38,362 bases of DNA from Microcaldota archaeon (GTDB lineage: Archaea > Micrarchaeota > Micrarchaeia > Micrarchaeales > Micrarchaeaceae), in assembly GCA_021785805.1 (NCBI GenBank), contig JAJYEJ010000002.1, forward strand, positions 3,073 to 41,434. Reading direction: 5' to 3'. The notes beneath the pieces were generated by a model. That model was given only the letters and a program-made list of their open reading frames with translations. It made no database searches and was not told the DNA's origin. A program made the position numbers and the translations under genes. Below are positions 289 to 31,133 of this stretch, one piece after another (within the stretch, counting starts at the first letter, position 1; the number at the start of each line of letters is the position of its first letter).

Positions 289-798
289 TTAGCAGGTTAC
301 TTCCAGTGTTATCGTCTGCGTATATACTGCCGCTGTCTGCCCTGCTGGAACATTGAGCCCGAAGTATATGTCATTCGTTGATGCTCCGGTCGGGACAACT
401 ATCCCGGTGTCGACCCCAGTGGTGTATCCCAATGCGGTTCCCGGACCTCCCGATGTTTTCGCCCACAGGGTATTGCTCACACCCATCGTGCCCGAAGGGG
501 ATCCAGTCCAATCTACGCCATATACGACAGCATTCGCATTAGTGTTGCCTATCGTGTCCGAAAGCACTATAACATTTGTAGTCGGTGCGCTTGAGCCTGG
601 CAGTACTGTGCCAAAGCTAATCGCAGTGTTCGATATGTCGAGAGCGCACGTGAGAGGCACATTGACCGTGCCCGTAATCGTGTTCGTCGCGGCGCCTGCA
701 AACATCACTCCGCCTTGCAACAGAGCGAATCCCAACACTGCGAGAAGCATTGCCGTAGCTGCTATGCCGAAGCCAGCCGCTGTCCTATTACTTCTCAT
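289..798 (-). CDS. Small secreted protein consisting of signal peptide plus a 120-aa Cys-bounded domain
   Basis: 169 aa ORF; signal peptide MRSNRTAAGFGIAATAMLLAVLGFALL; residues from TCALDIS to ITLEVTC align over 120 aa with the C-terminus of the next gene. Confidence 0.85.
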   Translation of the reverse strand: MRSNRTAAGFGIAATAMLLAVLGFALLQGGVMFAGAATNTITGTVNVPLTCALDISNTAISFGTVLPGSSAPTTNVIVLSDTIGNTNANAVVYGVDWTGSPSGTMGVSNTLWAKTSGGPGTALGYTTGVDTGIVVPTGASTNDIYFGLNVPAGQTAAVYTQTITLEVTC

Positions 799-871: not shown

Positions 872-3800
872 TCAACAGCTCGTCTCGAGGGTTATGGTCT
901 GGGTATACGAAGGCGACGGGGACTGTCCTGTAGGCACACCAAGACCGAAATATATGTCGTTTCCGGAGCCTGCCGGGAGCAGTATGCCTGTGTTGGCCGG
1001 GAGGGTCCCGAGCGGCGTAGCCGAGCCCCATGGGGTGCCGCTGGTCTTCGAATAGACCGTATTGCTCACCCCGAAGTTCAATGGCCCTGAAGCCCAGTTG
1101 TTTCCGTAGACGAACAATATGGAGTTGACGTTCCCTACGTCGGTGACCGCCACCGAGTTGTCCGTAGGCAGGCTTGTGGAGGGGTATACGGTCCCGAAAG
1201 CTATGTTGTTGTCGCTCACGTCTATCCCGCATGTCGCCGGGGTGAAAGTAACCTGGACCGTATTGCCTGCGATGGCGGCTCCCGAAGCTGGAGATACAAG
1301 ATAATTCACCGCCCCGACCATCTGGTCAGGTATGCTGTAAGAGTACGTTCCTGGCGTGTCCTGGAACTGTATCGTATTCTGTGTCGAGGAAAGCGTCTGT
1401 CCATTGTATATGACGTTCCACGCGTTTCCGCCTGGGAGACCGGTCTCGGCGAAGCTGGTTATCCCGTTCCAGTCCGCTGTAACGATACCGTTGCCGTTGA
1501 CGTTGAGGTTGGTCACTGTGGCTATGGAGTTGAAAACTGTGAGGTTGGCGCTATTGCTTGTCGTCCACCTGCTGAATACGTAGTTGCCGGAGGGCGGCGC
1601 CAGAGCCTGTATGTTTCCGGTCCCTATGACTCTCATCACCTGTCCATTCGAATATACGCTCTCGTTCGTGTTTATTGTCGCCGAGGACGGGGTGTCATCC
1701 AGTGTCACATACCTGGGCTGGAACACATAAGCCGCAAGCGCGACTGCTCCGGCGGATTTTGGCGTCGCGGAGGCGGTGTAGCTCCCAGATGCCGTGTTCG
1801 TGCAGGTTGCGATTTCGGTAGCGGCGCCAGGATTCCCGGCGTAATCCGCCAGTAGGTATTCCTGCCGTGTGCAGCCGCTCGGTATCGATGTGCTTGAGAA
1901 CTCCTGCCCGCCGCTCGCTATCAACAGCAATACGAAGGAGTTGGAGGAGGCCACATTGTAGTTGAGCGTCTGACTCGTTACGCTGTTGCCTGCGCTTGTA
2001 TACAGTTGGTAATTGGTCTGATTTATCCCTATCCCGGCTATGGACTCTCCAGCATTCCCGGAGGCGCCTACCGTATTCGCGGAGCATACGTTTGTGTTCT
2101 GATGCCCCACTGATGCGGCCGGGGGCGGACTGGAAGCGTCTGTAGCATTAGCGTCTCCGAACCACGTCAGAGGCTTTGGCGAAGTCGAGAATGTCGTAAA
2201 GGCGCCTGCATTGCAGTAGTGTCCCGAATATGCGCCAGGGAGGGAAACGGACAACAGGCCGCCCAGAGGCAACGAGTTCGAGCCGAAGCTGAACGGTACC
2301 GAATATGCGGCAGCCGTTATCTGGAAATTTCCTGTCAGCGAAGCTGAAGTATAGTTCGCGTTTCCAAGCGTGTCGAACAACTCGGCGTAGGTCCCCGGGG
2401 CTGAACTCGTGGTATACGCCGAAGATGACGAGGTCGTCGCGGTAAGGACATTGTTGACATATAAGCTTCCAGTAAGCTGGGAGTTGTAGGTCGTTATGGA
2501 ATAATCCACCACGCCCCCGTTGCCGTCATATTGATAGCTCTGCGGCACAGTGAGGGAGAGCGAAGGATAGGCCTGCACTACTGTCAGGGCGTTGTCCGAC
2601 GTATACTGGCTTACTGTGGAATCGTATGCCACTACGTTATACGTGCCTGCCGGCATCGGTGCGTCGGAAGGGGGGTTGCATGTCGAAATGGCATCACAGG
2701 ATACCGATCCAGTGCCAGTGGCAACCACGCTTCCGGGGGATGTCCCTTTCCCTACTAATATCTGTACAGTATCGGAACCGGATGGTGCTGTCGCAGTTAT
2801 CGTGTCACCCTGGTCATACGCGACCGAATTGCTCTGCATAACCAACGATAACGTACCTGCCTTGGAGAAGGCCACAGAGACGGAATTCCCAGCCACTGCG
2901 CTCCCGCTTTGGGGGAACGGGACATAGGTGCTTCCGCCAACTATTTGATTGGCTATGGAAAACGGATACGTCCCAGGTACGGTATCGAACGTGAGCGTAT
3001 TCGATGTCGAGGATTCCAATGAACTGTCATATACGACGTTCCATGTGGTGCTTGGAGGTAGCCCTGACTCGCTGAATGCGGTTATCCCATTGAAATCCGC
3101 GGTTATTATCCCATTGCCTTCTATGGTGGCCACGGTCGACGTCGAGAGCGCGTTCCCGATTACTATATTCGATGGATTGCTCACGGTCCAGCCTGTAAAG
3201 CTGTATGTCCCTGTCGCAGGCGCAGCTGCCGTTATGGGATTCGTCCCTATCACGGTCATCGTCGCCCCGTTCGGATAGCGGATCCCGTTATTGGTTATTA
3301 TGTTCCCTGTAGCTGGATTTATGTCCAATACGACCCCATAGGGGGCGAAGACATATGCTGCCAAAACCCCTATGCCGGGGGATGCCGATGGCGTCATGGT
3401 AAGCGTGTATGTGCCTGGATTCTGTGTGCATACTGCACTTACGGATGAATCCTGTCCGGAGGTGAGCAGGGACGTGGTCTTGGTGCAGCCTGAAGGCAGG
3501 GCGCCCAGGGAGCAATCCTCCCATCCGCATGCACCGACGATCGCGACAAAGCTATTCGACGCGCCCACCGTATAACTCAGCGTTGTCTTAGAACCGCCGC
3601 TCACGTTCGCCGCACTATACTGCGCGGACCTTGAGATGAGCGCATTGAATCCTATCCCTGAAGTTATCTCATACCACGAGGTGGACTGCTGGCACCACCC
3701 GACATTGGTCGACTGGTATCCTGTCGAGGCGCAGTTGCCTCCGCAGCTGCTGTAATAAGCGCTCTTCGCCACGGTGAACGATTCTGCAGGTATGCTGTAT

Positions 3801-4621
3801 CCTCCGGTACCGCATGCGAATACGTACGACGTGAAGCCTGGAGGCAGCGTAAGTACGACGTTGGTGGTGGAGCTTGACTGGGTATTCCCTGCAAGATAAG
3901 AGACCGCATAGCTCGAGAGCGAATCCGATACGCCTGAGAAGTAGAATGACGTGATGTTTGAACCGTATAAGGAGGTCGGGAGAGGAAGCCACTTCCCGCT
4001 GTTGTATTTGAACAAGGTAACGTTGCCCGGATTTCCACCGTTGCCTATGATCCAGCTTCTGGGGACAGAGAAATTATACGTGACGTTCGATATGAACTGA
4101 TCGGCATTCGCTGCAGTGCCGAGCAGGGAGGCAGCGCTCTGATTGATCTGTATGTATTGATAGACATCGCCAGGTGCGGTTTCCGGCGCCTGACTAAAAG
4201 GTACGGACGAGTTCGATACCGTGATGTTGAGCTGCTTTATCCTGCTATGCAGCCGTATATCCATGCTCCTGAACGCGGTCCCTCCCAGGCTGATGCGGAA
4301 CCTCTCCCCTCTCACGTCTAACGATCCCCTCCATTCCATCCCTGTGCCGTTAAGAGCGAAGCCCTCCGGAGGCGTGCCTATGGAAAGTTGCGCTCCGTAT
4401 GTTCCGGTTCCGTTCGTCTGGTTGCCTCCGTACGATGTGGTGTTGGCCGATATGTTGCCTGACGCCTCACTGCTGTTATATCCGCCAGATGATGAATTGG
4501 TCGCGTTCGTATGATTGTAAGCCGTATCGCCTGCCGCTCCAGCATGAGCTATCAGTGCTGCCATAGAAAGCAGCATTCCGATTACGAGCCAAGCGAGAAC
4601 CAGATGCACATTCCTGATCAT
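872..4621 (-). CDS. Large secreted surface protein with N-terminal PGF-pre-PGF-like domain, duplicated internal modules and C-terminal Cys-bounded domain
   Basis: 1249 aa ORF; signal peptide MIRNVHLVLAWLVIGMLLSMAALIAHAG; many N-x-S/T sequons; DVYQYIQINQSAA...FKYNSGKWLPLPT...SYAVSYLAG resembles PGF-pre-PGF domains; internal repeats. Confidence 0.85.
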   Translation of the reverse strand: MIRNVHLVLAWLVIGMLLSMAALIAHAGAAGDTAYNHTNATNSSSGGYNSSEASGNISANTTSYGGNQTNGTGTYGAQLSIGTPPEGFALNGTGMEWRGSLDVRGERFRISLGGTAFRSMDIRLHSRIKQLNITVSNSSVPFSQAPETAPGDVYQYIQINQSAASLLGTAANADQFISNVTYNFSVPRSWIIGNGGNPGNVTLFKYNSGKWLPLPTSLYGSNITSFYFSGVSDSLSSYAVSYLAGNTQSSSTTNVVLTLPPGFTSYVFACGTGGYSIPAESFTVAKSAYYSSCGGNCASTGYQSTNVGWCQQSTSWYEITSGIGFNALISRSAQYSAANVSGGSKTTLSYTVGASNSFVAIVGACGWEDCSLGALPSGCTKTTSLLTSGQDSSVSAVCTQNPGTYTLTMTPSASPGIGVLAAYVFAPYGVVLDINPATGNIITNNGIRYPNGATMTVIGTNPITAAAPATGTYSFTGWTVSNPSNIVIGNALSTSTVATIEGNGIITADFNGITAFSESGLPPSTTWNVVYDSSLESSTSNTLTFDTVPGTYPFSIANQIVGGSTYVPFPQSGSAVAGNSVSVAFSKAGTLSLVMQSNSVAYDQGDTITATAPSGSDTVQILVGKGTSPGSVVATGTGSVSCDAISTCNPPSDAPMPAGTYNVVAYDSTVSQYTSDNALTVVQAYPSLSLTVPQSYQYDGNGGVVDYSITTYNSQLTGSLYVNNVLTATTSSSSAYTTSSAPGTYAELFDTLGNANYTSASLTGNFQITAAAYSVPFSFGSNSLPLGGLLSVSLPGAYSGHYCNAGAFTTFSTSPKPLTWFGDANATDASSPPPAASVGHQNTNVCSANTVGASGNAGESIAGIGINQTNYQLYTSAGNSVTSQTLNYNVASSNSFVLLLIASGGQEFSSTSIPSGCTRQEYLLADYAGNPGAATEIATCTNTASGSYTASATPKSAGAVALAAYVFQPRYVTLDDTPSSATINTNESVYSNGQVMRVIGTGNIQALAPPSGNYVFSRWTTSNSANLTVFNSIATVTNLNVNGNGIVTADWNGITSFAETGLPGGNAWNVIYNGQTLSSTQNTIQFQDTPGTYSYSIPDQMVGAVNYLVSPASGAAIAGNTVQVTFTPATCGIDVSDNNIAFGTVYPSTSLPTDNSVAVTDVGNVNSILFVYGNNWASGPLNFGVSNTVYSKTSGTPWGSATPLGTLPANTGILLPAGSGNDIYFGLGVPTGQSPSPSYTQTITLETSC

Positions 4622-14559: not shown

Positions 14560-17331
14560 CTATCTTATCGCCCAGTACTTCTTGTTCTTTATGAACTGCT
14601 TCTGCGCCTCTATCAGGTCCGTGTAGAAAAGCCTATCCTCCTTCCTGAACATCATCAGTATCCTGGCCGCGCTTGTCGGACCCACCCCGTAAGTGGATAA
14701 CGCTATTGCTGCCCTTCCCCCGTAGGAGTCAATCAGGCTGGCCTGTCTCATTATCTCTGCAAGCAGGTCCCTCTCCGAGCCCGAGAGCCTTTTTCCATTC
14801 TTCCTCTTCTCCAGCACCTCCACATAACTGTCATCATGCGGGGCTATCAGCGGACTGCTGCAGTTTGGGCATCTTATCTTGTCATCGGACTTGATTTCAT
14901 CAAGTTTCCTGCTGAAGAACATCCCGCAGTACGTGCATATTAGCTTTATGCTCTTCGCAAGCATGAACTTCGAGAACGATTCAACCAGTTCCCGGTTCGG
15001 CAATATCGGCATTATGAGCTCCTTCGTGTAATAAGCGGATGCGAGTATCTCCTTTGACAGGGGCGACAGGCTGACTACCTCAACGGTCCTGATCCTCCTC
15101 TTTCCTGTAGAAAGCTCATGGAAAAGGGCCCTCAATGCCTCTATATCGAAATAGTTGTGCATCAGCTCCCTTACGGTCTCCGAATAGACCGGCGTGCCGC
15201 TAAGCACTTTCATTATCCTTTTTGCCACCGATCTTGTCACGGTTGCGTCCTTTTCCACTATCCCGAACAGCTTCGCCACAGTAATGAACCTGTAGCGGAA
15301 AAGCTCCGTATCCTGGACGGTCTCTTCAAGTGTTCTTGCAGGGTCTTCCCTTGACATCCTGTCGATTATGCCATCAAGGTCGGTCTCGCGTGGCATCTCC
15401 AGGAATATCAGGTACGGCGAACTTTTCGTGTTTATGCTCCTGCCCGTGAACTTTACCACCGCATGCGCTATCAGCCTCGACAGGGCCTCATTCGCAAGGG
15501 TACCCAATCCGGTATATAGTATCTTGTAGCCCTCCGCCTGCTCAATGAATAGTTCAGACCTGTTCGGTATGCCAACTGCGCCTTGACGCTCTATGAAATC
15601 CTTTATCTCACCCTTTAGCGCGATTGACGCGGAGCCTGAGGAATCGACAAGGGATCTGTCGTTAAGGAGTTCAAAGACGCCCTCGGTCACCCCTCTGCTT
15701 ACCGGGATGTCCTCCCCGCTCCAATCCGGAATAGCCGCATCAAGGTCGCTGCTCGGCTCTACGGTTATGGTATTCTCATCGATGCTTATCACCTTCCATG
15801 GGAGGCCTTTGGTTATGAAGATGGAGTTCTCATCCACGGAGCTTGCGACGAACTTCTCGTCGAGCGAGGAGATTATCCTGTTCGTCGACATATCCCTGAC
15901 CATGAAGCGCTGCGTATCGGGTATCACGCTCAGGTGGGAGTAATAGTACATCCTCGTCCGCGGACCCGATGAGACGACATTTCCGTCAAACCCTATCATG
16001 CGCTGCCGTTCCATGAAGTAGAGCAGCTCCTTCAGCGCCTTCCCGTCGAGCTTCGAATAAGCGAACGCCCTCGTTATGATTCCATATACCTCCGACATGG
16101 TGGAGGTCCCTTTGTCGAGCGCTATTCCGCATATCTGGTTCGCGAGCACATCGAGCGCGTTCTCGTGGATGCTGAACCTCTCAAGCGCGCCTTCATCTAC
16201 GTTCCTTGAGATTGCGATCGATTCTATCGCGTCTATCATGCTGGCTGAGACTATCGCCCCTCTCGATGTACCCTTTTCCGTATGCCCACTCCTTCCTATC
16301 CTTTGGATCGCCCTCAGCGCCTGCCTAGGCGATCCGTAATGCACGACCAGATCGACATGTCCTATGTCTATGCCGAGCTCTAGCGAGCTCGTTGCTATTA
16401 TGCTCTTTATCCTATGGGCTTTGAACGAATCCTCCATATCCACCCTTTCCTTCCTGTCCAACGAGCTGTGGTGTACGCCTATCCCGCCGAAAGGCTCCAC
16501 CTTGTTCAGGTTGATGAGCCTGTTCCCCAGGGATTCGACGATCTGCCTGGTATTGGCGAATATCAATGTCGAATTGGAAGCCATTACATGCCCCGCTATC
16601 GTCTCAAGCCTCGCAGCCGCATTCCCGTCAAGTCCGAATTTTTCCATGAAATCGTTGAGCTTCTTGCTATGTCTGTGTGGCAGTTCAACCTGTATCGACA
16701 TGCGCTTCTTGTAGTCGATAGATGCGACTTCGCAGTTCCTGTTGCCGCATAAGAACTTCGATATCATCTCCGGGTCGCCGACCGTCGCGCTTATGCCTAT
16801 CCTCTGGAATCCGGGCGAGAGTTCCTCGAGCCTCTCGAGCGCTAGAGACAGCTGCGCACCTCTCTTGTTATGGTAAAGTTCATGGATCTCATCAATAACG
16901 ACCACCTTTACCTTTCTCAGCGCTGCGCCTATCGTCTTTGTCGGCAGTATGCTCTGCAAGGTTTCAGGCGTTGTGATGAGCAGCATAGGGGCGCTCCTCG
17001 CCTGCCTCGCCCTCTCGCTCTGTGTGGTATCGCCGTGCCTTACTGATACAGTGACTCCAAGTTCACTGCACATCTTCTCCACCCTCCCTATCATGTCCCT
17101 GTTGAGCGCCCTGAGCGGGGTAATGTAAAGCGCCTTCACCCCCAGCCTGTCCTCTTCCTTCAGTATCCTATCCAGCAATGGCAGGAGAGCCGCCTCCGTT
17201 TTCCCCGCTCCCGTCGGGGCTATCACTATGCAGTTGTCTCCTCCCGCTATCAGTGGTATTGCCTTCTTCTGTATGTCGGTATAACCGCCGTGCTTTTCCA
17301 AGAAGCGTTGGTACACGATAGACATGATCAT
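14560..17331 (-). CDS. Lhr-family DEAD/DEAH ATP-dependent helicase with C-terminal Cys4 zinc-binding segment
   Basis: APTGAGKTEAALLP, DEIHELYHNKRGAQLSLALERLEEL, SSLELGIDIGHVDLVVHYGSPRQALRAIQRIGRSGH; C-terminal CTYCG...CPNC. Confidence 0.93.
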   Translation of the reverse strand: MIMSIVYQRFLEKHGGYTDIQKKAIPLIAGGDNCIVIAPTGAGKTEAALLPLLDRILKEEDRLGVKALYITPLRALNRDMIGRVEKMCSELGVTVSVRHGDTTQSERARQARSAPMLLITTPETLQSILPTKTIGAALRKVKVVVIDEIHELYHNKRGAQLSLALERLEELSPGFQRIGISATVGDPEMISKFLCGNRNCEVASIDYKKRMSIQVELPHRHSKKLNDFMEKFGLDGNAAARLETIAGHVMASNSTLIFANTRQIVESLGNRLINLNKVEPFGGIGVHHSSLDRKERVDMEDSFKAHRIKSIIATSSLELGIDIGHVDLVVHYGSPRQALRAIQRIGRSGHTEKGTSRGAIVSASMIDAIESIAISRNVDEGALERFSIHENALDVLANQICGIALDKGTSTMSEVYGIITRAFAYSKLDGKALKELLYFMERQRMIGFDGNVVSSGPRTRMYYYSHLSVIPDTQRFMVRDMSTNRIISSLDEKFVASSVDENSIFITKGLPWKVISIDENTITVEPSSDLDAAIPDWSGEDIPVSRGVTEGVFELLNDRSLVDSSGSASIALKGEIKDFIERQGAVGIPNRSELFIEQAEGYKILYTGLGTLANEALSRLIAHAVVKFTGRSINTKSSPYLIFLEMPRETDLDGIIDRMSREDPARTLEETVQDTELFRYRFITVAKLFGIVEKDATVTRSVAKRIMKVLSGTPVYSETVRELMHNYFDIEALRALFHELSTGKRRIRTVEVVSLSPLSKEILASAYYTKELIMPILPNRELVESFSKFMLAKSIKLICTYCGMFFSRKLDEIKSDDKIRCPNCSSPLIAPHDDSYVEVLEKRKNGKRLSGSERDLLAEIMRQASLIDSYGGRAAIALSTYGVGPTSAARILMMFRKEDRLFYTDLIEAQKQFIKNKKYWAIR

Positions 17332-20532: not shown

Positions 20533-20671
20533 ATCCACCGGCATGGCGCCGGGTCGGGAAGCATGCAATCCTGTCCACGGACAGTGTACGAATATCGACC
20601 AGGTATTCCATCTGCGGATACTAAGGAATAAAAACACTCGTAGAGAATCAGATAAACGTATCGGTGGCGTG

Positions 20672-21028
20672 ATGCTGTATAACTACCTAGCGATTGTCTT
20701 CTTCATCGCCTTCGCCATATTCATGCCAGTATCGCTTCTCATCACCTCCAGACTCATAAGGAGCAGCAAGCCCGGGAACAAAGTCAAGAATGCGCCATAC
20801 GAGAGCGCAGAGGAGCCCATAGGGGAGATCAAGGACACGGACATAGAGTACATGCCGTTCTTCGCGATATTCCTGCCGTTCGAGATTGTCGCGATGATAC
20901 TGGCGCTGTGGTCGGTATCCGTGAGGAGCCTGAGCTTCACGACAAACATGTCTGTCATAGGGCTTGCGATAGTCGCGATGATCATGTCACTGATAGGTTA
21001 TCTTTACATACGTGAGAAACATGCCTGA
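20672..21028 (+). CDS. nuoA: NADH-quinone oxidoreductase subunit A-like
   Basis: Start trimmed to MLYNYLAIVFFIAF; APYESAEEPIG...Y.PFFAIFLPFEIVAMILALWSVS typical of NuoA/NdhC; followed by nuoBCD. Confidence 0.88.
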   Translation: MLYNYLAIVFFIAFAIFMPVSLLITSRLIRSSKPGNKVKNAPYESAEEPIGEIKDTDIEYMPFFAIFLPFEIVAMILALWSVSVRSLSFTTNMSVIGLAIVAMIMSLIGYLYIREKHA

Positions 21029-21701
21029 AGCGGAAACTGTAACCGGAGTGGCGGAGGCTGAAGCCCAGCCGCAGCCGCCGGAGGGCACCCCATACACCGC
21101 AGAGCAGTTCCTGAACGCGAGGGAGCGGATGGACAAACTCTATCTAGAGACCGCATCGATAAAGGGGAAGCCAGTGAACGCCATGTTTGCGAAGCTAAGC
21201 GACCTCACCAAGATGATGTCAAAAAACGTTCTCAGCTGGGGCAAGACGAATTCCATGTGGCCGCTACAGTTCGGCCTAGCCTGCTGCGCGATAGAGCTTA
21301 TGGACTTTGGAGCTGCCAGGATAGACGCGGAGAGGAAGGGATACCTCCTATTCAGGGCAACACCAAGACAATGTGATGTCATGATCGTAGCTGGATGGGT
21401 CACCAAGTCGGTGGTCCCAAGGATAAAGAGGCTATACGAGCAGATGGCATCGCCAAAATACGTGATCGCATACGGAGAATGCGCCACATGCGGAGGGCCA
21501 TGGTGGGAAAGCTATAACATAATAAAGGGCATAGACCAGGTCCTCCCAGTCGATGTTTATGTTGCAGGTTGTCCGCCAAAACCGGAGAACCTTTTCGGAG
21601 CGCTAATGAAGCTACAGAAGAAAGTAGGTGGGAATGTTGCAGGAGATACCGAGAGAGGCGTTAGTGAAAACGCTAGAAGGAATGAAGGCGAGAGGGTTTA
21701 A
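21012..21701 (+). CDS. nuoB: NADH-quinone oxidoreductase subunit B-like
   Basis: FGLACCAIELM, CDVMIVAGWVTKSVVPRIKRLYEQM, ECATCGGPW, VAGCPPKPE: all four N2 cluster cysteines present. Confidence 0.95.
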   Translation: MRNMPEAETVTGVAEAEAQPQPPEGTPYTAEQFLNARERMDKLYLETASIKGKPVNAMFAKLSDLTKMMSKNVLSWGKTNSMWPLQFGLACCAIELMDFGAARIDAERKGYLLFRATPRQCDVMIVAGWVTKSVVPRIKRLYEQMASPKYVIAYGECATCGGPWWESYNIIKGIDQVLPVDVYVAGCPPKPENLFGALMKLQKKVGGNVAGDTERGVSENARRNEGERV

Positions 21702-22008
21702 CTATCTCGTCAAGATAACGGCAGTAGACTACACGAGCTACGTAGAGCTAGTGTACATACTGTATAACCTCTCTACGAAAGCCCAGGAAATAGTCAAGGT
21801 GAAGCTGCAGCCGAACGGCATGGAGGTCGAAACTGTGATGCCGATATTCTCGGCTGCGGACTGGTACGAGAGAGAATTGTCGGAGATGTTCGGGATAAGG
21901 ATAAAGGGGAGGAACGCGCGCAGGCTGCTTCTTGAGGAATGGGACGGCGTCGATGCGCCTCTCATGAAGAGCTTCGTATGGGGAACGGATTACAAGAGGC
22001 AGAGCTGA
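21628..22008 (+). CDS. nuoC: NADH-quinone oxidoreductase subunit C-like
   Basis: 126 aa; VYILYNLSTKAQEIVKVKL...SADWYERELSEMFGIRIKGRNARRLLLEEW typical NuoC; exact start uncertain (21628 or 21634). Confidence 0.88.
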   Translation: MGMLQEIPREALVKTLEGMKARGFNYLVKITAVDYTSYVELVYILYNLSTKAQEIVKVKLQPNGMEVETVMPIFSAADWYERELSEMFGIRIKGRNARRLLLEEWDGVDAPLMKSFVWGTDYKRQS

Positions 22009-23102
22009 TGGCCATGATGAGGATAAACGTAGGGCCGTTGCACCCTAGCACTCACGGAGTCCTGAGGTTAGTCGTGGATGTGGATGGCGACACCATAATG
22101 AATGTGGAGCCGCACATAGGCTTCCTGCACAGGGGCGTGGAGAAACTGTGCGAGACAAGGATGTATATGCAGAACCCCTCATACTTCGAGAAGCTCGATT
22201 ACATAGCCCCGATGAGTTGGCAGGAACTCTATGTCGCCTCTGTGGAGCAGGCGATGGGGGTCCAGGTGAAGGAGGCTGCGCAGTACGCCAGGGTCATACT
22301 TCTGGAATTCCAGAGGATAGCGAACCACCTCCTCTGGACGGGCACCATGGCCAACGACATCGGCCAGATGTTCACCATATTCATGTGGTGCTTCAGGGAA
22401 AGGGATAAGGTGCTCAAGCTCCTGGAAGACGTGACCGGAGGCAGGATGTTCTACCTGAACATGAGGCTCGGCGGGATACAGAGGCCATTGCCCCCTGATT
22501 TCAAGGACAGGGCTTATGCGCTTGCCGACTACCTGGAGAAGAAGGTAAGGGAATACCCAGATGTCCTCGATGCGAACAGCGTATTCATGGAGAGGATGCG
22601 GGGGGTCGGCGCGATAAGCAAGGAAGACGCGATAAACTACGGGGTGACCGGACCTGTCCTCAGGGCAGCCGGCGTGGAAGAGGATGTAAGGAGGTCCAGC
22701 CCGTATTACGTGTACGACAAGATGGATTTCAGGATTCCAACCGGGAGAAACGGCGACTGCTACGACAGGTATAGGGTGAGGTATGAGGAGATGCTCCAGA
22801 GCATAAGGATAATAAGGCAGGCGCTGGACACGCTGCCGGACGGTGACATGGTCGGCGCCCCAATAAAGCTCATCGGCCCTCCGGCCAAACCCGACATAGT
22901 CGTGGCAAGAAGGGAGCTTCCAAAAGGGGAGGGCCTGATATACATGGTCCCGGACAAGCAGAGGCCATACCGGATATCGCTAAGGGCTCCAGGGTTCGTC
23001 AACCTCGCAGCTCTGCCTAAGATGGCGGTTGGTGCCAAGTTCGCCGACCTCTTCGCCATATTCGGAAGCCTCGATATAATATTCGGTGAGACTGACAGGT
23101 AA
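22008..23102 (+). CDS. nuoD: NADH-quinone oxidoreductase subunit D-like
   Basis: Start trimmed to MAMMRINVGPLHPSTHGVLRL; GFLHRGVEKL, SPYYVYDKMDFRIPTGRNGDCYDRYRVR, GSLDIIFGETDR end. Confidence 0.95.
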   Translation: MAMMRINVGPLHPSTHGVLRLVVDVDGDTIMNVEPHIGFLHRGVEKLCETRMYMQNPSYFEKLDYIAPMSWQELYVASVEQAMGVQVKEAAQYARVILLEFQRIANHLLWTGTMANDIGQMFTIFMWCFRERDKVLKLLEDVTGGRMFYLNMRLGGIQRPLPPDFKDRAYALADYLEKKVREYPDVLDANSVFMERMRGVGAISKEDAINYGVTGPVLRAAGVEEDVRRSSPYYVYDKMDFRIPTGRNGDCYDRYRVRYEEMLQSIRIIRQALDTLPDGDMVGAPIKLIGPPAKPDIVVARRELPKGEGLIYMVPDKQRPYRISLRAPGFVNLAALPKMAVGAKFADLFAIFGSLDIIFGETDR

Positions 23103-25552: not shown

Positions 25553-26290
25553 TCAAGCCTTCCTGAGCTTGGACACGGATCCGAAGTCGATAGTCGAGCC
25601 ATAACCTATCGCAATCGCACGCATGCCATCAACCCTGGTTCTCCTGAAAACCGGTGACAGCAGCGTGCTAGCCGGCTGCATGTTCACATCGGTCCCAGCC
25701 GCATAATAGTTTATGGCCGGCAGGACCAGAAGCGGTTTTCCTTCGTATCTGCCGTACAGGAAGCACCTAAGCTTCTCCTTTATGCCTGTCGCGTTGTATA
25801 TCCCTATGGCCGGATGCTCATGCCCCATTATCAGCATCTTTGCCTTTTTCACGCCTTCCGGGAGTTCCTCTCCATGGAAGAAGAGGTAGCCGCCTATCAG
25901 AGCCTCCTGCCGGTAGACCTTCAGCTTGAAAGGTTCCTTGTACCTTTCCACAAAGTTGTCATGATTGCCCTTTATGAGCACAGGCATCGCCTTCTTCTCC
26001 TTAAGGAAGTTTATGAAGTCGTAAAGCTCGTTGAACTCCTCCTGGTCCACGGTGGAGAACTCGTTCTTTATGTCTCCGTCCACTATAACGGTATCGGCCT
26101 TTGTGGACTTTAATGCTCCCCCGATCATGTCCATTATCTTCTTGAGGTTCGCCTTTGGGAGGAAGACGCCGCTCTTGACCATGACGCCCTCGTAGCCCAG
26201 ATGTAGGTCTGCCACGACCAACGCGTTAAGGCTCCGTATGTACGCTATGGGTAACCCATCAAGCAGCTCCACATCCTTTGTCAAGTTCAT
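25553..26290 (-). CDS. Metallophosphoesterase, COG1407-like
   Basis: VADLHLGYE, IVDGDIKNEF, LIKGNHDNF, FFHGEELP, IMGHEHPAIGI metallophosphoesterase motifs. Confidence 0.9.
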   Translation of the reverse strand: MNLTKDVELLDGLPIAYIRSLNALVVADLHLGYEGVMVKSGVFLPKANLKKIMDMIGGALKSTKADTVIVDGDIKNEFSTVDQEEFNELYDFINFLKEKKAMPVLIKGNHDNFVERYKEPFKLKVYRQEALIGGYLFFHGEELPEGVKKAKMLIMGHEHPAIGIYNATGIKEKLRCFLYGRYEGKPLLVLPAINYYAAGTDVNMQPASTLLSPVFRRTRVDGMRAIAIGYGSTIDFGSVSKLRKA

Positions 26291-26396
26291 GTTAAGCCTA
26301 TCTAACGATGATTACCTTATGCTATAAGAAACATATGATATTATGGTATAAACATCAAAAGCATAAAATCTCTTTCTAACGTGTTAGCGAAAACCA

Positions 26397-26408
26397 GAGT
26401 TTAAATAA
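26397..26408 (+). promoter_or_regulatory. TATA-box-like promoter upstream of the pilin/propeller gene
   Basis: GAGTTTAAATAAG about 45-50 nt upstream of ATG 26451. Confidence 0.4.
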
Positions 26409-26450
26409 GTACATCTCAAATGTCCGTATATATTATTAAATGGCGAAAAT

Positions 26451-27833
26451 ATGGCAAACGCTCTAAGGTCCCAGTCCGCGATGGAGTACCTCATGACATA
26501 CGGATGGGCGATCCTCATAGTGGCTGTGGTCCTGGGTGCGCTCTACAGCCTCGGCATCTTCAACGGTGCCAATTTCCTTGGAGGGACATGCGTAGCATCT
26601 CCAGGATACCTCTGCAGCAATCCGCTCCTGGCCACCGACGGTACGCTTTCCCTAACATACGGGTATCAGGGACCCAATGTCACGGTAGCGGGGTTCGCAT
26701 GCACCAACACGACCACTGCGCCCTCGTCCTTCACGTCATCAGGGTCCTCTAACCTTGAACCTGGGCAGGAGGAGAGCGTAAGTGTCTCGTGCCCTCTCTC
26801 ATCGAGCGCAACGATCGGGACCTCTTACTCCGGTTATCTGTGGGTGGAATACGACCAGGCGGGTCAGAGCGACCTTATATCGAGGTTCGCTACCGTAAGG
26901 GTTGACGCAAGTACACAAGAGCAATACTACGTCTGGGTCGCAAATTATGACTCTAGCACAATAAGCGTGATCAGCACCTCAAACAATGTGGTGGTCAAGA
27001 CGATCACACTAGGTTCAGGCTATTATCCGGTTAGTATCGCTATCACCCCAAATGGGCAGTATGTATACGTGACTGATTCTAACAACGGGGACCTCAGCGT
27101 GATAAACACCGTAACATACGCTGTCACTACAATCTCATTGGGTCCCTCCAGTTCATATCCTTGGGATGTTGCATTCACCCCTAACGGACAGTACGCTTAC
27201 GTTGTGCTCAGGGGAACTGATGTGGTCGACGTGATAAACACCGCAACGCTTGGCGTCAGTGACACGATTACGTTGCCATCAGGCGCTAATCCATGGAGCG
27301 TAAGCATCACCCCGAACGGACAGTACGCATATATAGTAGATACTAATGATGCTGCAGTCAATGTAATCAGCACTTCTACCCTACTTCCAGTCTCCGGAGA
27401 TCCGATTGCAGTGGCTCCATCACCCACTGTTCTTGTATTCGCGCCAAATGGCAACTATGGTTATCTAATAAGTTTAGCTCAAAAACCTGCCAACGTAATC
27501 AGCACCTCAACCAATCTTCCTATCGCAACCTTTGGCGGTTATTACCAGTCTTTCGGTGCGGCAGTCACTCCCAATGGCCAAGATATTTTTGTGACAGATT
27601 ATAATACCGGTGTAGTCTACGAATATAGCACATCGACTTATGCTATGATCGCGGGTCCGATCACTACAGCACAGGCCGCGTATGGGGTCGCAGTCACCCC
27701 TAACGGCGAATATGCATATGTTACAAACCAGCAAGCAGCATCAGTAACTGTCATCAACGTAGCCACAGGTAAAGTTATCACTACGATACCTGTTGGGCTT
27801 AATCCCGAAGGTGTCGCTATAACACCAACATAA
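26451..27833 (+). CDS. Class III signal peptide (pilin-like) protein fused to a 7-repeat YVTN-type beta-propeller
   Basis: MANALRSQSAMEYLMTYGWAILIVAVVLGALYSLGIF (QSAMEY class III motif); seven roughly 42-aa YVYVT...ISVI...P.GV.ITPNGQ repeats. Confidence 0.9.
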   Translation: MANALRSQSAMEYLMTYGWAILIVAVVLGALYSLGIFNGANFLGGTCVASPGYLCSNPLLATDGTLSLTYGYQGPNVTVAGFACTNTTTAPSSFTSSGSSNLEPGQEESVSVSCPLSSSATIGTSYSGYLWVEYDQAGQSDLISRFATVRVDASTQEQYYVWVANYDSSTISVISTSNNVVVKTITLGSGYYPVSIAITPNGQYVYVTDSNNGDLSVINTVTYAVTTISLGPSSSYPWDVAFTPNGQYAYVVLRGTDVVDVINTATLGVSDTITLPSGANPWSVSITPNGQYAYIVDTNDAAVNVISTSTLLPVSGDPIAVAPSPTVLVFAPNGNYGYLISLAQKPANVISTSTNLPIATFGGYYQSFGAAVTPNGQDIFVTDYNTGVVYEYSTSTYAMIAGPITTAQAAYGVAVTPNGEYAYVTNQQAASVTVINVATGKVITTIPVGLNPEGVAITPT

Positions 27834-28457
27834 AGGGCAATGATTCAGGTGAGTTAGTAAGTTCAAGTATAAGCATCCTTTAAGCAAGACCTGTTTACAC
27901 CAACATTCCTAACTAGGGGTTGATTGGAGAAGGAAAGAGCACCGCCTGCCATCGACATGGCAAAGCAAGCGTGTCCTGCTGAGCCCCGAGACTGTTGGAA
28001 TCATTTTTGGCGTTGGCGCTGTATGTATCCTTCGTACAGATACAATGACAGAATCTCCGATGAAGCGAACTGCATGCTTGTACCGGTCTAACTCGCATCT
28101 CATAGGGGCATGCAACGAAAGAGGACACACTAACACTTGGTTTGAGGCTAGCGAGATTCATGGGCCAGCTTATCGCGCTTCCTGGCACGATCAAGCGGTG
28201 CGGACCTTACGACACCTGTCATCTTATCGGTGTACCAATGCTTAACCGCGTATTTTTCAAGTTCATGGACTACGCAGAGCGGCATACTGAAGACACATGT
28301 GACAATAATCGGGAAAACGACATGGCGCGTTATGCCATAATAGGGAAATAGTATGAGGTGCTGCAAAGGTATTCCACCTCCGGATACATGTGCTGGCTAT
28401 AATGACTGCCGCATCCATGTACGTGCCCATATGTGTGCTGGTGGCTAAGCTGTCAGG

Positions 28458-31133
28458 TCACCTCGCCTTTCCGCCTATCTTCTTCATGACCTGCTTGTGC
28501 AGGTACTGCAGGTATCTGCCCCTTTCCTTCATCAGCACCACATCCGCCCTTCCGAAGGTGATCAGCGAATGCGCGAACGGGCTAGGCAGCGGCGTCTCTA
28601 TGATCTCCCACCGCATCTTTCCATCCTTCAGCATGGCCAGCACCTGCTCTGCCCTCGGAAGGTCCATCTTCTCGTTCAGTATCTCCCTGTAAGCCTCTTT
28701 TATCAGGGGGAAGTTCGGGTCCATCTCCTCGGCGGCCTTGAATACGAGCTGGGAGTTCGTCTGCTGCCTGCCTACTCCTATCCTCCAGCCCTTGTAATTC
28801 CTCAGGATCATGAAGCTCCTTCCGGCCACATGCCTGAATATCCTCTTCATGAGTTCGGTGTTCCTTATGTTCTTCCTCATGTCAGATGCGAGATTCCCGG
28901 AAGAGAGATCGTTTATCGCCTCCTGCATTATCTTGCTGTCGATGTGCAGGCTCTCATCGCTGACCAGCATGAATCCGTTGTCATTTATCATGATCCCTAT
29001 ATCCTCGTTGAGCAGCTCCCCTATCTCCATCGCGAAAGCCCTCGAGAGCGCGTCATTGACCCTTCTTCCGAATAGGGAATGGAAGATCAGGTAATGCTTC
29101 TCCGTAGCCGGGTCAGCCGTGGATTCGATGAGCAGCATCTCTATGCTCGGCAGCGCCTTTGCGTAAAGCAGCTGCTCGGCGAAGTAGCTGAAGATGGCCG
29201 TTTTCGAATTTTCATCGACAGGGAACTTTCCAAGGTAATCGCTTATCTCCTTCGGCATCCTGGACGTTCTCCCGTATGCTGTCTTCCTCCTGCCGAGGTA
29301 ACTGTTCATCACCTTCCCGAACTCGGCCCTGAACTCGCCTATCCTTGTGGCAAGCTCGAAGCTGAGCGGCAGCTGCTCCGAGAACCATGGGGGTATCGTC
29401 GGGGACGACGCCTGCGCCTGCGTGACATAGCATTTCATAGCCTTTGCATATTCGAACTTGTACAGCTTCCCCCCTAAAGTGAAAATGTCCCCGGGCTTCA
29501 GCCTCATCAGGAACTCCTCTTCTATGTTGCCTATCCATCTCTTCGTCCCTTCCAGCACAACGTTCACCGCTACCTCATCAGGTATCGTGCCGAGGTTGAG
29601 CATGTATATCACCTTTGTGAACTTACCTCTCTTGCCGAATGCGTTCTCCTTCTCGTCGTACCATATCTTTCCATACACCCTCCTGCTCTCCAAGCCCACG
29701 TAATTGCCTGCAAGGTAGTTCAGAAGGGCGACGAAGTCCTGTTTCTGGAGGTTGTGGTAAGCATACGATCCTTTTACCACGCTGTAAGCCTCATCCACAT
29801 CCCATCTCTTGGCCAGCGCCATGCCCACGATGTGCTGTGCCAATACGTCGAGCGCATTCTGCGGGACCGTGAACGAGTCGAGATGCCGCTTTAGCGCAGC
29901 ATCCAGCATCACCGTGCACTCCACGAGGTCGTCGCGATTGAGCACGATCATCTCGCCTTTCGCCGTCGACTTGTAGGAATGGCCTGCCCTCCCTATCCTC
30001 TGCACGGCCCTCGTGACGCTCTTCGGCGATCCTAACTGCACCACATTCTCTATCGAACCTATGTCGACTCCAAGCTCCAGGCTAGTCGACGAGACCGCGC
30101 ACTTTATCGATCCCTTCTTCAGCATCTCCTCCACCTCCAGCCTAGACTCCCTCGACAATGAACCATGGTGCGCCGCTATGTCCTCACCGTACCCGAACCT
30201 CTTCTTCAGGTTGAAGACCACTCTCTCAGTGCCGCTCCTGGTGTTGGTGAATATGAGCGTGGTCTTGCTCTCCTTTATGATCCCGTTTATCCTCTTGTAG
30301 AGCTCATCCTCTATCTCACCCTCTTTCGCATAGATGAGATCCTTTACCGGGCTTATGACCTTTACGTCGAGCTTCTTGCTCCATGACGCGTCGACTATCA
30401 TGCAATCGTTCGGCTCCTTGCCATTGTACCCTGCCAGGTATTTCGCAGCCTCATCAAGCGGATAGAGCGTGGCTCCGAGCCCCACCCTGGCGAATCTCCC
30501 ATTGGCGAGGTTGGCTAGCCTCTCGACAGAGAGCGACAGGTGCACCCCCCTCTTATTGTTCGCCAGCTCGTGAACCTCATCCAGTACCAGGAATTCTACG
30601 GTCTTCAGGTGCTCTACGAACTTCTGCGAGTTGAGCAGTATCGCAAGGCTTTCCGGCGTTGTGACCAGTATGTTTGGCGGCTTGGCGAGCATCTGCTGCC
30701 GTTCCTTCTGAGTCGTATCTCCTGTCCTGACACCTATGGTCACCTGCCTGATGTTATGCTTGATTATCTCTATCCCCCTGTCCTTCTTTATCGCATCATA
30801 CACCTCCTCCAGCGGCCTTGCGAGGTTCCTGTGTATGTCGTTGTTAAGCGCCCTCAGCGGGGATACGTATATGCAGTAGACCCTGTTCTCTAGCTTCCCT
30901 TCGAGCGAGTAATCGAACAGCCTGCTTATTATGGACAGGAAGGCTGACATCGTCTTCCCGGATCCGGTCGGTGCCGTGACGAGGGTGTTCCTGCCTTCGC
31001 TTATCAGCTTGAACGAGTATCTCTGCGGAGGGGTCAGCCCATCGAAGTTCTTGGTAAACCAGTCCCTGACATACTTGTTAAGCACGCCTAGGCTTTCCTT
31101 GTCGGTAAACGGCTCTTTCGCGTATTCTATCAT
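28458..31133 (-). CDS. Lhr-family ATP-dependent helicase (second paralog)
   Basis: TAPTGSGKTMSAFLSIISRLF, VSPLRALNNDIHRN, LVLDEVHELANNKRGVHLSLSVERL, STSLELGVDIGSIENVVQLGSPKSVTRAVQRIGRAGH. Confidence 0.94.
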   Translation of the reverse strand: MIEYAKEPFTDKESLGVLNKYVRDWFTKNFDGLTPPQRYSFKLISEGRNTLVTAPTGSGKTMSAFLSIISRLFDYSLEGKLENRVYCIYVSPLRALNNDIHRNLARPLEEVYDAIKKDRGIEIIKHNIRQVTIGVRTGDTTQKERQQMLAKPPNILVTTPESLAILLNSQKFVEHLKTVEFLVLDEVHELANNKRGVHLSLSVERLANLANGRFARVGLGATLYPLDEAAKYLAGYNGKEPNDCMIVDASWSKKLDVKVISPVKDLIYAKEGEIEDELYKRINGIIKESKTTLIFTNTRSGTERVVFNLKKRFGYGEDIAAHHGSLSRESRLEVEEMLKKGSIKCAVSSTSLELGVDIGSIENVVQLGSPKSVTRAVQRIGRAGHSYKSTAKGEMIVLNRDDLVECTVMLDAALKRHLDSFTVPQNALDVLAQHIVGMALAKRWDVDEAYSVVKGSYAYHNLQKQDFVALLNYLAGNYVGLESRRVYGKIWYDEKENAFGKRGKFTKVIYMLNLGTIPDEVAVNVVLEGTKRWIGNIEEEFLMRLKPGDIFTLGGKLYKFEYAKAMKCYVTQAQASSPTIPPWFSEQLPLSFELATRIGEFRAEFGKVMNSYLGRRKTAYGRTSRMPKEISDYLGKFPVDENSKTAIFSYFAEQLLYAKALPSIEMLLIESTADPATEKHYLIFHSLFGRRVNDALSRAFAMEIGELLNEDIGIMINDNGFMLVSDESLHIDSKIMQEAINDLSSGNLASDMRKNIRNTELMKRIFRHVAGRSFMILRNYKGWRIGVGRQQTNSQLVFKAAEEMDPNFPLIKEAYREILNEKMDLPRAEQVLAMLKDGKMRWEIIETPLPSPFAHSLITFGRADVVLMKERGRYLQYLHKQVMKKIGGKAR

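Follow-up and report, generated by a model that had tools for sequence, protein, structure and literature searches.

The gene at positions 26451-27833 (plus strand) of the window, by which we mean the whole 38,362-nucleotide stretch of Micrarchaeota DNA that was analyzed, belongs to a family of proteins that are probably archaeal modular pilins, in which one conserved polymerising base carries exchangeable display heads that are swapped by recombination. An earlier note on this DNA described the gene by itself. That single-gene observation stands, and the more important finding, which it missed, is a wider pattern: the gene is one of at least 15 sisters that carry interchangeable heads on a base that stays constant. 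The recognition and holding of partners by tiny, reduced archaea is largely an open question, and for the present organisms, which are probable symbionts, head swapping may be a way to change the targets of attachment.

Anatomy of the window protein

The open reading frame that had been proposed was recovered exactly. It starts at an ATG and encodes a protein of 460 amino acids that consists of a prepilin base and a YVTN propeller head. A TATA-like box (TTTAAATA, 26400-26407, plus strand) can be read in the sequence ~43 nt upstream of the ATG, and the pilin gene may have this promoter element of its own. The N-terminus MANALRSQSAMEYLMTYGWAILIVAVVLGALYSLGIF is of the archaeal prepilin type, as was first stated. 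The leader peptide MANALRS (26451-26471, plus strand) is predicted to be cut by a prepilin peptidase before Q8, and the leader/helix junction RS/QSAMEY fits the class III rule, in which K or R and then A, G or S are followed by Q-x-x-x-E/Y. Among 113 relatives, the residue at position -2 before the Q is K or R in 101 and the residue at position -1 is A, L, S or G in 107. The leader is followed by a hydrophobic N-terminal helix that runs from Q8 to residue 33 (26472-26549, plus strand; helix 10-33 in the AlphaFold2 model) and has a highest 19-residue hydropathy of 2.4. Such a helix is the polymerisation helix of type IV pilins.

The ~120 residues that come next had been regarded as a linker, which is not what was found. 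Residues ~38-155 are confidently predicted by AlphaFold2 to be a folded β-sandwich, probably a pilin-like one, with strands at residues 46-153 (26586-26909, plus strand), and the base modelled alone has a pLDDT of 89. Alignment of the paralogs in the same genome determined that the columns of the four conserved cysteines (Cys47, Cys55, Cys84 and Cys114) are invariant. When the base was compared to known structures using Foldseek, the matches ranked 1, 2 and 4 were the S. islandicus tri-pilus, the P. calidifontis pilus and the M. hungatei archaellum; these matches to archaeal type IV filaments are modest (E = 1.7e-3 to 6.8e-3, TM ~0.3). A profile match of the base to the designed Kelch protein 8pjw spans 23 residues and was judged to be spurious. 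The viral fold library gave no match at E ≤ 0.001, and the bacterial N-methylation motif of IPR012902 was not found in the protein in a Pfam search at E ≤ 1. The N-terminal ~150 residues would make up a complete pilin with a leader, a filament-packing helix and a small β-sandwich.

The junction between base and head is at residues ~150-157 (26898-26921, plus strand), where the identity between paralogs collapses. The exchangeable head (residues 160-457; 26928-27821, plus strand) is a YVTN β-propeller, and the seven repeats that the earlier note had counted were borne out when structure prediction gave a seven-bladed propeller. The YVTN repeat profile TIGR02276 matched with E = 1.1e-28 (99 bits, cut-off 27.85), and a search of solved structures matched the YVTN propeller of a Methanosarcina S-layer protein (PDB 1l0q) with E = 1.7e-32. 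The AlphaFold2 model, which was built with 39 sequences and has a mean pLDDT of 90.5 and a pTM of 0.76, contains ~28 strands in residues 160-457, equal to seven four-stranded blades. The top Foldseek match was also 1l0q (31% identity over 305 columns, rmsd 1.8 Å), and a seven-bladed designed propeller matched with a TMt of 0.85.

A constant base with different heads

A protein search of the window's own genome (905 kb, 71 contigs, 84% complete) with the window protein gave a row of matches that cover residues ~1-158 only. At least 15 genes of this genome share a base of ~145 residues, at 73-95% amino acid identity to the window copy, and this family takes up roughly 20 kb of the 0.9 Mb genome. 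The heads of the 15 genes were counted after split genes were joined (C46a with C3, C66a with C20, and C30b across a gap). These include ten YVTN-like propellers, two Kelch-like heads (assigned via PF13964/PF24681), one DUF2341 head, one glycine-rich head and one unnamed 'AAYVF' head, and LamG heads were found on more distant prepilin-like genes. A concrete list of heads is now available for binding tests. The 'AAYVF' domain, which forms the head of C34b and of pilins from other genomes, is also carried by a probably secreted protein of 1249 residues that is encoded in the window (872-4621, minus strand; 33% identity, E = 4e-10), and heads therefore also circulate on non-pilin surface proteins. 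Two neighbouring genes of the window (289-798 and 872-4621, both minus strand) encode probably secreted proteins with a common C-terminal domain that was recognized by eye (C-x-x-D-I/V-S...IxFGTV...TLE-x-x-C).

Among nine close paralogs, the nucleotide identity is 0.84-0.95 per 10-codon block and falls from 0.85 to 0.29 by codon ~150 counted from Q8. The stretch Q8-I23 is invariant across the 15 paralogs of the genome, as are the QSAMEYLMTYGWAI segment and many residues of the sandwich. The four-fold sites of the base are ~31-78% identical between copies, which shows that recent duplication cannot by itself account for the similarity. Since the amino acid identity of 73-95% is kept despite this drift at four-fold sites, the base is held by purifying selection, as is expected if all of the copies must fit one machine or filament.

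All 60 of the relatives have the base, with 5-38 copies each, as do 149 of the 156 genomes of the phylum Micrarchaeota. The copy number is high in the order of the window's genome and in one further family (f11) and is mostly 1-5 elsewhere in the phylum. The relatives that have names are Micrarchaeota MAGs, a few of which are labelled Marsarchaeota. The existence of this family suggests that modular pilins are not confined to bacteria but occur on a large scale in archaea. Very large reading frames with a pilin base also occur, of 5127 residues (G083:C1:256369, L239) and 2066 residues (G110:C3:37382). Every genome used is a draft assembly in which pilin bases break contigs, and contigs C3, C16, C20, C46 and C66 of the window's genome (G000) end within or beside base copies. 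The copy numbers are underestimates because the base repeats break short-read assemblies.

The base and the head have separate histories. In pairs of genes from the window's genome with alignable heads, the four-fold identity is 0.62-0.75 in the base and 0.18-0.27 in the head, where the saturation value (random expectation) is 0.263. The corresponding values for a more distant Kelch pair are 0.37 and 0.27. The bases are also mosaic, as three pairs have over-long shared third-position runs (family-wise p of 0.0003, 0.001 and 0.008) that would be a sign of recombination between bases. The base tree groups strongly by genome (31 changes versus 51.5 in shuffles), while 25 of the 42 heads are matched best by a head from a different genome. 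In an independent genome (G099), there are 19 similar bases, the best pairs of which are 91-96% identical in amino acids, and the heads are of DUF2341, LamG-like, glycine-rich and other types. Four headed pilins of this genome form a tandem array with near-alike bases and different heads (L226:3158-10885, contig C17). Some of its close pairs have related heads, and whole-gene duplication thus occurs too.

Heads are replaced at orthologous loci. The syntenic heads were compared in one pair of congeners (G009 and G007) that have three pilin genes in conserved synteny, and across the three loci the four-fold identity is 0.35-0.69 in the flanks, 0.41-0.59 in the bases and 0.22-0.24 in the heads. 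At the first locus, the nucleotide similarity is 82.6% through codon 171 and is absent in the head, which is YVTN in one congener and Kelch in the other, and it returns past the stop, after 16 nt in G009 and after 77 nt in G007. At the second locus, the similarity ends at codon 165, a DUF2341 head stands against an unrelated head, and the similarity is back 73 nt (G009) and 658 nt (G007) past the stop. The heads of the third locus are both Kelch-like and are saturated at silent sites. Head replacement between congeners with the flanks kept points to the parts of the cell surface on which the pressure from host, virus or surface is changing. No donor was found for any replaced head, and we infer homologous recombination as the swapping agent from the boundaries and the mosaic bases. 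A candidate for a leftover old head behind a replaced one (L199, 5940-6620) was rejected as its similarity to heads is not convincing.

The same data could be explained with no exchange of heads if overwriting through gene conversion (concerted evolution), or else selection, kept the bases alike as the heads diverged rapidly in place. The mosaic bases and their genome-specific clustering are what this would predict, and the same-type heads at one syntenic locus are still 41% identical. At the other two syntenic loci, however, the heads belong to different families (YVTN versus Kelch, and DUF2341 versus another), the similarity of the bases does not exceed that of the flanking genes, and a change of fold family is not readily explained by fast divergence. 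We regard this explanation as improbable.

Proposed display of the heads and comparison to known systems

In keeping with the pilin that the earlier note had proposed, pilus assembly and prepilin peptidase genes are present in the genome. These include three PF00437 ATPases, two PF00482 platform genes above the cut-off and one just under it, and a single A24 prepilin peptidase (PF01478) whose match is weak, at 27.5 bits in the genome search and 24.4 bits when the reading frame was scanned alone (cut-off 26.5). On contig C66, one of the ATPase reading frames ends ~90 bp away from the sister gene with the DUF2341 head. Short headless members of ~160-210 residues occur beside the headed ones and are likely the major pilins.

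Leader cleavage, incorporation into a filament and adhesion are proposed for the headed proteins. The leader would be cut before Q8 by the single A24 peptidase of the genome, and the base would most likely be processed and assembled together with the headless pilins, so that the heads would be shown on filaments. The C-terminal propeller would face outwards as a display head, and what it binds would probably be partner cells, glycans or proteins. Heads would be swapped in place by recombination, with homology provided by the conserved base on one side and by the flanking sequence past the stop on the other, and new copies would also enter new places, such as that of the window copy between lhr and a phosphoesterase gene. 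The outcome would be one assembly machine with a changing set of heads, and binding-type heads would presumably be used for attachment to partner archaea or surfaces. A broader possibility, which is put forward tentatively, is a genome-wide combinatorial display in which one selected base is kept in many copies and recombination within the base moves the heads (propellers, lectin-like and glycine-rich) from locus to locus and from strain to strain. The binding repertoire of a single pilus machine would then keep changing, probably tracking changing host archaea.

Whether the headed proteins enter filaments bears on an alternative that we regard as unlikely, namely that the prepilin-like N-terminus is a membrane anchor only, the headed proteins are single S-layer-like surface proteins and the headless ones form pili. 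The headless members are available for that role, the YVTN/Kelch propeller proteins of Mia14 are interpreted as surface-layer proteins (PMC5498576), and reading frames as large as that of 5127 residues in G083 are hard to picture within a filament. Against this, selection acts on the whole pilin fold, with the QSAMEYLMTYGWAI segment and many sandwich residues invariant in 15 copies, which goes beyond a mere hydrophobic anchor. Additionally, an ATPase gene adjoins a headed member and the large-headed modular pilins of bacteria belong to pili (PMC8179133). The function of the head itself could also be a different one, as a propeller of the lactonase or quinoprotein kind could be an enzyme that is tethered to the surface through the pilin base. 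The lactonase profile PF10282 does exceed its cut-off (39.2 bits versus 21.7), and the hydrazine synthase beta and quinohemoprotein profiles match at well below theirs. This is very unlikely, however, given that the closest match is the archaeal S-layer propeller 1l0q and that the sister heads are of Kelch-like, DUF2341, glycine-rich and LamG types, a variety that suggests binding more than a single chemistry. The propeller is best read as a head for adhesion or display, and the earlier interpretation as an adhesive pilin is to that extent supported.

Among known proteins, bacterial modular pilins are the closest in kind, and the system that varies in the most similar way is the PilV shufflon. 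Raynaud et al. (2021) described modular pilins such as PilB and PilC of S. sanguinis, in which a pilin module is joined to a larger module that is unrelated to pili (vWA, lectin and many others) and the adhesins are displayed by filaments (PMC8179133). The Micrarchaeota proteins likewise have an N-terminal pilin module and a C-terminal module that is not pilus-specific. The bacterial census was defined by the motif IPR012902 (PMC8179133), whereas the base described here is of the archaeal class III type and lacks that motif. The proteins also differ from their bacterial counterparts in that at least 15 headed copies share one base in a genome of ~0.9 Mb and in that heads are replaced at orthologous loci. 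The PilV shufflon is a system of IncI plasmids in which a minor type IV pilin has a constant N-terminus and a C-terminus that is varied by recombination, which alters the cells that are bound. These C-termini are short (69-113 residues), and a dedicated recombinase flips invertible cassettes at one locus (PMC9045228). A constant N-terminus with alternative C-termini is common to both systems but in the Micrarchaeota whole domains of 200-400 residues are exchanged in many separate genes at many loci. No silent or orphan head cassettes were found in the member contigs examined, where each pilin-type head has a base once split contigs are joined. Tyrosine recombinases are present, the nearest of which (G000:C16:4659-5156) is ~4 kb from two headed pilins, and no cassettes were seen. 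The family works like both systems and is a member of neither set because it is without the shufflon cassettes and without the bacterial motif.

Mia14 (Ca. Mancarchaeum) is also a member of the Micrarchaeota and has the same head types. Its YVTN/Kelch propellers are fused to a 'CARDB-like' adhesion-like module and are called S-layer proteins that are interpreted to function in cell-cell interaction, and two T4P systems and one FlaK are described (PMC5498576). The account of these proteins in that report mentions neither a pilin base nor a constant-base family, and no exchange of heads. The propeller of 1l0q is alike, but it accompanies PKD domains and not a pilin. No description of an archaeal constant pilin base with exchanged heads was found in a literature search, a weak one that covered mainly open-access texts.

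The window copy and its neighbours

A synteny comparison places the window copy in a 2,167-bp insertion (26291-28457) that separates two genes which lie side by side in 11 congeners. The flanking genes encode a calcineurin-like phosphoesterase (25553-26290, minus strand; PF00149), which has Lhr as its neighbour in congeners, and an Lhr-type helicase (28458-31133, minus strand; PF08494, PF19306 and PF00270). The spacing between the two, measured from the ends of the matches, is 6-23 nt in all 11 congeners in which both were found together, versus 2,167 bp here. The 8-bp sequence AGATAGGC is present near both ends of the insertion and is only suggestive as a target-site duplication, because an 8-bp match would arise by chance in the compared stretches with a probability of ~0.1. 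A search of the genome with the insertion found nothing that is repeated elsewhere except the base and no shared ends, and no Rfam match was obtained for RNA families in the insertion. Mobile-element borders were considered and rejected, as the regions up- and downstream of the 15 genes share only local duplications (C46a/C46b/C16c and C30a/C30b).

Behind the pilin gene, the insertion includes ~620 bp (27834-28457) with no convincing gene. The 38-kb window has two different Lhr-type helicases (14560-17331 and 28458-31133, both minus strand), and both are found in most congeners. A Complex I-like cluster (20543-23102, plus strand) is also present in the window, with a confirmed 49-kDa subunit (PF00346, E = 4e-83) and neighbours that resemble NuoA/B/C by eye, which is notable for a reduced archaeon.
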